DNA from: Chitinophagaceae bacterium | Lineage (GTDB): Bacteria > Bacteroidota > Bacteroidia > Chitinophagales > Chitinophagaceae | Direction of reading: 5' to 3' | Assembly (NCBI GenBank): GCA_017998385.1 | Contig: JAGODE010000019.1 | Span: 1 to 34,074, forward strand | DNA length: 34,074 bases | In this document: piece by piece, positions 21,014 to 34,074 of the stretch | Layout: every line of letters starts with the position of its first letter | How positions within the stretch are numbered: position 1 is the stretch's first letter | The notes under the pieces: model-generated | The model's database searches: none | Seen by the model: the letters and a program-made list of their open reading frames with translations, nothing else | Told to the model about the DNA's origin: nothing | Made by a program: the position numbers and the translations under genes

Positions 21014-21257
21014 AGAATGTGCTAATGGGTTAATGTGCTGATGTGCTAATGAATTTGAAGATGGGTGAGGAAATGTGCTAATGGGTTAATGTGCTGATGT
21101 GCTAATGAATTTGAGGATTTGATGATTTGAAAATTTGAAGATGGAGAGAGGAAATGTGCTAATGGATTAATATGCTGATGTGCTAATGAACCCTTTTCCT
21201 TTCACCTTACTCCCTCTACCCTACTTAATACTTAAAACTTAATACTTATAACTTTTT
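21014..21257. repeat. Composite short-unit repeat array between paaB and paaC
   Basis: The whole gap is low-complexity. It opens with ATGTGCTAATGGGTTAATG-type octamers (copies starting at 21017 and 21073, 56 bp or seven octamers apart; a third variant at 21154). A GATTTGA-type run lies between the second and third copies, then pyrimidine heptamers (CCCTTTT, CCTTTCA, CCTTACT, CCCTCTA, CCCTACT) follow. It ends with TAATACT/TAAAACT heptamers running up to the paaC ATG. There are no unique spacers, so it is not CRISPR. The same modules in the same order recur in inverted orientation at 23297-23448. Confidence 0.88.
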
Positions 21258-23296: not shown

Positions 23297-23448
23297 GTTG
23301 TGGGTATTAAGTTCTAAGTTTTAAGTATTAAGTAAGGGAGACGGTGTAAGGCGAAAGGTAAAGGATATATTAGCACACTGGCAAATTAGCACATCAGCAC
23401 ATTAACCCATTAGCACATTTCCTCTCTCATCTTCAAATCTTCAAATCT
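23297..23448. repeat. Composite short-unit repeat array between paaG and paaI (inverted copy)
   Basis: Read on the minus strand, it has the same modules in the same order as the paaB-paaC array: GATTTGAAGATTTGAAGAT, GAGAGAGGAAATGTGCTAAT, GGGTTAATGTGCTGATG, pyrimidine-rich units, then TACTTAATACTTAAAACTTA. The array fills the intergenic gap and abuts the paaI ATG. With the array at 21014-21257 it forms a long imperfect inverted pair around paaC, paaD and paaG. Confidence 0.87.
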
Positions 23449-33126: not shown

Positions 33127-33489
33127 ATGAAGATTATGATAAAGAGTGCAACTACAGAAGATATGCGAACACTGGCATCCTGTTTAAATAAACTTGTCAG
33201 GGATGGCTATACAGAAGACTTCAAAGTATCTGAAATGGGTCTGCTGTCGCAACAGCAGGAAAAGATTTATCAGCCTTCAGAAGTCAATATTGTAAATTTT
33301 TACCGCTTTGAAGGCGCCAGTGACCCGGCAGACAATTCCATTATATATGTTATTGAAACTGCCGACAACATAAAAGGTACGTTGATTGACGCCTATGGCC
33401 CTTATGCCGATCCCGTTGTGAACCGGTTTGTTGAAGAAGTAGCATCTATTAACAAAAAAGCCGTACACAGTGATTCAACAAAGAACTGA
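33127..33489 (+). CDS. Conserved small Bacteroidota protein of unknown function
   Basis: A 120-residue soluble protein. It resembles a family of about 100-residue Bacteroidota proteins that databases often label 'phosphoribosylpyrophosphate synthetase'. Shared features are an N-terminal helix with LNKLVRDGYTEDFKV, a central VNIVNFYRFEGASDPADNSI and IIYVIETADNIKGTLIDAYG. None of the real PRPP synthetase motifs (PRPP loop, flexible loop) are present and the protein is far too short, so that label should not be trusted. A second ATG three codons in (33136) fits the predicted sigma-54 transcript better. It is followed after 19 bp by the cysteine-rich gene, probably as an operon. Confidence 0.75.
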   Translation: MKIMIKSATTEDMRTLASCLNKLVRDGYTEDFKVSEMGLLSQQQEKIYQPSEVNIVNFYRFEGASDPADNSIIYVIETADNIKGTLIDAYGPYADPVVNRFVEEVASINKKAVHSDSTKN

Positions 33490-33508
33490 ACCTTACATCC
33501 GCGTATGT

Positions 33509-33817
33509 ATGAAAACCTGGCTTCTCTGCGAGTCAGCTATTCACAATGAAATGAAACGCAGACGTCCCCGCCAGGGTCTTGTAGAAGCCTGTACCGAATG
33601 TGCCCGTGTATGTTTTTCACTGGTATCACAACTGGTGAGTGAGCAGGCGGCCGATGACAATACCGGCCCCATGGCATTCGATTGCTGGCTTAGCTGCCGC
33701 CAATGCGCAGAAGCCTGTTTCCCTTACTTAAGAGAAGAAGATTTTCAACTCTGTGCAGAAGCCTGTGTTGACTGCAGCGAAGAACTGAAAGATATTTTCC
33801 GTTTCAACCTCAATTGA
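33509..33817 (+). CDS. Cysteine-rich four-helix-bundle copper-binding-like protein
   Basis: From the ATG at 33509 the product is 102 residues. Ten cysteines sit mostly in paired helix-facing patterns: ACTECARVCFSLVSQLVS, CWLSCRQCAEACFPYLR and CAEACVDCSEELKDIF. This resembles the DUF326/Csp-type four-helix-bundle proteins that store copper in a Cys-lined core, although the protein is slightly short and lacks an export signal, so it should be cytosolic. Alternatives are zinc or other soft-metal binding. An in-frame GTG at 33470 would overlap the previous gene and adds nothing conserved. Its last 12 codons (from 33782) are repeated exactly, or with one change, in the tandem array downstream. Confidence 0.72.
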   Translation: MKTWLLCESAIHNEMKRRRPRQGLVEACTECARVCFSLVSQLVSEQAADDNTGPMAFDCWLSCRQCAEACFPYLREEDFQLCAEACVDCSEELKDIFRFNLN

Positions 33818-34074
33818 GATGGTAAAAGGTAAAGGGTAGAAGGTGGAGGGCATTATATCTTACAGGAATCTTCGCTGGATTGTACTAAAGAACTGAAAGA
33901 TATTTTCCGTTTCAACCTCAATTGAGATGGTAAAAGGTAAAGGGTAGAAGGTTGAGGGCATTATATCTTACAGGAATCTTCGCTGGATTGTACTAAAGAG
34001 CTGAAAGATATTTTCCGTTTCAACCTCAATTGAGATGGTAAAAGGTAAAGGGTAGAAGGTGGAGGGCATTATAT
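33782..34074 (+). repeat. 108-bp tandem repeat overlapping the end of the copper-protein gene
   Basis: Units begin at 33782, 33890 and 33998 (the last is cut by the window edge), exactly 108 bp apart. Each holds GAACTGAAAGATATTTTCCG and the rest of the gene's final 12 codons with stop, then GGTAAAA/GGTAAAG/GGTAGAA/GGTGGAG heptamers. A 40-bp segment follows that reads in frame as QESSLDCTKEL, leading into the next copy. Copies differ by only one or two bases (33953 T for G; 34000 G for A). Because 108 is a multiple of three, all tails share one reading frame. Confidence 0.92.

Follow-up and report, generated by a model that had tools for sequence, protein, structure and literature searches.

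A 108-bp tandem array at the 3' end of a predicted copper-storage gene, bounded by a predicted hairpin terminator, in a Chitinophagaceae bacterium

The 3' end of a predicted Csp3-like copper-storage gene (csp) is repeated in a 108-bp tandem array, one end of which lies in a strong hairpin. This hairpin is predicted to be the terminator common to csp and a convergent DUF1328-like gene. The repeat is probably a VNTR-type (minisatellite) array that arose by tandem duplication of the csp 3' end together with one hairpin arm and the edge of the loop. The window analysed here is the whole stretch of 34,074 nucleotides, which corresponds to an entire contig (C73) of an assembly of 439 contigs and 4.8 Mb that is 91.6% complete.

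Results

The csp gene and the anatomy of the array

The features of the locus are as follows:

33127..33489, + strand: open reading frame of 120 aa, directly 5' of csp and overlapping the csp start
33470..33817, + strand: csp, a predicted Csp3-like (DUF326) cytosolic copper-storage gene, with a GTG start at 33470 or a later ATG at 33509
33780..34074, + strand: tandem array of 108-bp units; the window holds 2.7 copies before the contig breaks off, and the array resumes at bases 1-117 of contig C431
33780..33817, + strand: repeated csp tail (last ~12 codons plus TGA), found again at 33888-33925 and 33996-34033
33818..33851, + strand: hairpin left arm, GATGGTAAAAGGTAAAGGGTAGAAGGTGGAGGGC, present in each unit; the right arm is single, at approximately 126-150 of C431
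33852..33887, + strand: 36-nt filler, ATTATATCTTACAGGAATCTTCGCTGGATTGTACTA, between the left arm and the next tail; also at 33960-33995 and on C431

The product of the host gene is, by prediction, a Csp3-like copper-storage protein. Pfam DUF326 matches positions 33506-33814 with an E-value of 6.7e-5, the csp profile matches solved Csp3 structures (5arm and 6ei0 among them) at E-values of about 2e-4 to 5e-4, and the cysteine columns are invariant across relatives. In the protein beginning with MIQQ, no signal peptide was seen on inspection by eye. The 120-aa open reading frame gave no family match above the cut-off. It is also located 5' of csp in the sister species, Sphingobacteriales bacterium 46-32 (MKTY01000020), whose Csp protein is 97% identical; the other csp-bearing relatives are Chitinophagaceae.

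As the original prediction had proposed, the end of the window is a 108-bp tandem array. TRF assigned positions 33780-34074 a period of 108 bp, 2.7 copies, 98% matches and a score of 576. The units start (AAAGATATTTTCC) at 33788, 33896 and 34004 and, in register, read AAAGATATTTTCCGTTTCAACCTCAATTGA (csp tail and stop), followed by the purine-rich arm, the 36-nt filler and AAGARCTG. The final 38 bases of the csp gene make up copy 1 of the repeated tail, and the window holds two more copies. More specifically, the gene ends from 33780 as AAGAACTG...AATTGA, and the repeated tail differs from it solely by GAA/GAG, which bears out the proposal that about 12 codons recur nearly unchanged. The segment ahead of the repeated tail reads QESSLDCTK, and csp itself reads AEACVDCSE; the peptide-level resemblance initially pointed out between QESSLDCTKEL and AEACVDCSEEL is present as described.

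Direct reading of the units revealed that each contains the TGA stop (33815-33817 in the first unit, repeated in the later ones), then an in-frame TAA four codons on, and that no ATG, GTG or TTG start lies ahead of the repeated tail. Translation of the repeats is ruled out by these in-frame stops and the absent start, and the frame-keeping length of 108 bp, to which significance had been given, is without coding meaning. The Csp protein itself would be unaltered by the array.

A second class of simple words was observed elsewhere in the window, where the short 8-bp periodic words AATGTGCT / ATTAGCAC occupy positions 21016-21107 and 23369-23419. At other loci (L142, L162), the same class was encountered in intergenic arrays of larger size.

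Continuation of the array on a second contig

The window ends at a contig end located inside the array, and the expectation that the array extends further was borne out by C431, a contig of the same assembly that starts within it. The first 117 bases of C431 contain one filler and one tail. The contig then exits the array after GGAGGGC into TTTGTTCCTTACACCTTCTACCCTTTACCCTTCTCC, the hairpin right arm, beyond which lie a convergent gene, which we take to be DUF1328-like on the basis of 51 residues of its protein, and a gene presumed, likewise from sequence, to be obgE. The arms occur as the variants GGTGGAGGG, GGTTGAGGG, again GGTGGAGGG at the end of C73, and GCGGAGGG at the start of C431. Because these variants differ, the extended sequence must contain three fillers at the least, and probably four. 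That C73 and C431 are adjacent is shown by the sister species, where csp, hairpin, DUF1328-like gene and obgE follow one another in this order on one 1.8-Mb contig.

The breaks of both contigs within the array and the fragmentation of the assembly into 439 contigs are what an assembly artefact could produce, but distinct variants are present among the units (the three arm variants as well as GAA/GAG), the filler occurs on C73 as well as on C431, and arrays of the same style lie inside the 1.8-Mb contig of the near-complete sister assembly. With synteny joining the two contig ends, we regard an artefact as highly improbable. An Rfam search of the locus returned no match.

A mirror-image array at the same hairpin in a sister species

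For the exit hairpin, the folding energy is -40.9 kcal/mol (z -5.7) for the + strand and -42.7 kcal/mol (z -8.0) for the - strand; for the hairpin of the sister species, it is -49.3 kcal/mol (z -8.4). An interior unit has no structure beyond that of shuffles (z 0.15).

The sister species has a single csp tail, and the 108-bp csp-tail array is absent. Its own array comprises 3.9 copies of a 100-bp unit made up of the loop, the right arm and the tail of the DUF1328-like gene (contig C20, 686755-687144; locus L012, 1845-2234). This array is the mirror image of the csp array around the same hairpin and has one end in the same loop. In the third genome of the genus, which lacks both the purine-rich hairpin and the array, csp lies directly 5' of obgE.

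A purine-rich word shared with arrays elsewhere in the genome

The full 108-bp unit was not found at other loci; elsewhere, the purine-rich word alone recurs. Allowing at most one mismatch, the word GGTAAAGGGTAGAAGG occurs 62 times in the own genome, 46 times in the sister species and not at all in the third genome, and its reversed control 2, 0 and 3 times, respectively. Copies are often spaced 83-125 bp apart, in arrays. By hand count, at least 29 of the 62 own-genome copies are located in the outermost 500 bases of a contig; from 439 contigs and 4.8 Mb, about 9% would be expected there. Due to this excess at contig ends, the purine-rich arrays would appear to help break the assembly. For the own genome, counts were obtained by searching for patterns and from a sample of 400 kb. 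Purine-rich arrays with a spacing of about 85-125 bp were seen on contigs C3, C77, C90, C139, C181, C185, C193, C195, C253, C258, C260, C343, C374, C391 and C431.

A second case of a repeated gene tail is located on C181, where a 107-bp unit present four times carries a 39-nt gene tail per unit (locus L035, 1434-1857). These unit tails differ in bases from their own gene and partly agree with the gene of the sister species. At the orthologous site on C20 of the sister species, the array is built from another unit, 101 bp in length (locus L181, 2092-2483). Two further arrays were noted: C185 begins with 8.7 copies of a 97-bp unit composed of whole hairpins (locus L040, 5-828), and C343 has 4.7 units of 136 bp with the palindromes TAGCCCCGCGATGCTTCGCGGGGC (locus L042, 361-999).

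To put these cases in proportion, unselected sequence contained four arrays with a period of at least 50 in each genome (800 kb of the sister species, 398 kb of the third genome and 400 kb of the own genome). Repetition of a gene tail 3' of its gene is rare: among 1249 genes in unselected sequence there were 3 cases, two of them low-complexity. Hairpins alone would therefore seldom cause tail copying.

Origin of the 36-nt filler

According to the original prediction, the unit goes back to a second, diverged csp gene, whose tail and that of the intact gene would have recombined ahead of the expansion; such a gene would since have been lost or be missing from the assembly. Searches for a paralogue of this kind found a single csp match in the own genome, whose completeness of 91.6% leaves room for a missed copy, one in the near-complete sister genome, and one in each csp-bearing genome of the relatives and of the family sample (296 genomes). 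A search for the DUF326 family in three genomes and a search of plasmids yielded no second copy. Matches to the filler DNA in the own genome and 40 relatives were confined to the array and the tail, and the exact filler was not found in viral contigs.

The peptide likeness of the filler to csp nonetheless exceeds chance in register (p ~2e-4 when anchored; 0.15 in a free search), and it is this likeness that speaks for a paralogue. With frame and register anchored, none of 20000 shuffles matched the score of QESSLDCTK against AEACVDCSE, the probability against real genome 36-mers is 1.8e-4, and over 178144 genome 27-mers the in-register value is 4.5e-5. Furthermore, a score of this size arises in 0.2-0.8% of cases when the sequence decays neutrally to equal DNA identity. 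Against this stand the single csp match in every genome sampled, the weak likeness in DNA (16/36, p 0.01), and the finding that 15% of random 36-mers reach the score once six frames and the whole protein are left free. Taken together, we consider a paralogous source decidedly unlikely. An exchange of C-termini from silent cassettes is ruled out, as the known fillers are all alike, and a source in the convergent gene was rejected because the alignment is at chance level (0.34).

Two further origins draw the filler from csp itself. It could be an inverted (snap-back) copy of the csp tail that arose when the template was switched at the hairpin and that was altered later. In the reverse complement of the filler, CAGCGAAGATTCCTGTAAGATAT aligns to the gene as CAGCGAAGA--ACTGAAAGATAT, with 19 of 21 aligned bases identical and a single gap of 2 nt. 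Among genome 36-mers, 0.2-0.4% score as well, and such an event would agree with a described quasipalindrome mechanism (PMC7202029). About 10 nt of the filler are left over, however, a p of ~0.003 is weak given 36 nt and several hypotheses tried, and the known filler copies are identical, with intermediates not seen; we hold this origin to be rather unlikely. The filler could also be an old direct copy of csp codons that decayed in the array, with the tail kept homogenised with the gene. In favour of this, GAT and GAG of the csp units match the gene of the sister species, and the tail copies on C181 likewise differ from their own gene and share states with that of the sister species. Decay alone would hardly change 14 of 27 bases beside about 70 unchanged ones, and the retained peptide likeness is improbable under neutral decay by the 0.2-0.8% given above, which leaves this origin unlikely. 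The filler is best described as a junction segment, and none of the three origins weighed is established, because it comprises 36 nt only and several hypotheses were tried after the sequence had been seen.

The same GAT and GAG states bear on the age of the array, which had been proposed to be a recent expansion. The copies are alike, as that proposal holds, but the own gene has GAC and GAA, and since the units match the gene of the sister species, the unit may predate some of the changes in csp.

Discussion

A VNTR-type array formed by tandem duplication, the explanation we favour, is consistent with the units, their flanks, the hairpin, the synteny and the mirror-image array of the sister species. 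Stalled replication or a template switch at the hairpin may have given rise to the first duplication, a step proposed by analogy with template switching at quasipalindromes (PMC7202029). The array would subsequently have been expanded and homogenised by unequal recombination or slippage. With each unit, the 3' untranslated part of the csp mRNA would grow by 108 nt, and as the right arm exists once, the terminator would form at the last unit alone. Three observations count against this explanation: plain duplication of contiguous sequence does not account for the 36-nt filler, the in-register peptide likeness of the filler is not predicted by a simple junction, and repeated gene tails are as rare as given above.

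A broader reading is that the strong convergent-gene hairpin terminators of the genus are hotspots, at which one half, consisting of the tail and one arm as far as the loop, becomes a tandem array time and again, left or right depending on the species and by independent births. We put this forward tentatively, as conceivable rather than probable. The outcome of the analysis is mainly a corrected annotation, namely a repeat array rather than the trace of a lost gene, along with one cause of broken contigs. The part most deserving of a further look is the pair of mirror-image arrays at one terminator; if the pattern is general, it would provide a simple natural system for terminator hairpins seeding tandem duplications in bacteria.

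The csp array belongs to a commonplace type of tandem repeat in bacteria. Known here from one assembly of the species, it has constant-length, near-identical head-to-tail units (108 bp, 98%), as VNTRs do, with the stop codon of the adjacent gene inside the unit. Among known systems, MIRUs (mycobacterial interspersed repetitive units) are tandem units of about 50-100 bp beside gene ends at several loci, and they form one dispersed sequence family. The arrays described here resemble them in the range of unit size, the tandem arrangement, the position at gene ends and the occurrence at several loci, but differ in that a short purine-rich word alone is shared and the remainder of each unit is local.

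Template switching at quasipalindromes, described in E. coli (PMC7202029), has in common with the proposed origin that hairpin-forming DNA is a mutation hotspot and the nascent strand serves as template, whereas it perfects imperfect inverted repeats and makes no long tandem arrays. In Yersinia pestis, 10 of 88 VNTR loci overlap stop codons (PMC3689786). Like the csp array, these stop-codon VNTRs are tandem arrays at gene 3' ends with the stop in the unit and little effect on the protein. Their units are 1-60 bp long, in contrast to 108 bp here, and the csp array further differs from them in that it ends on one side inside a terminator hairpin and has a mirror-image counterpart in a sister species.
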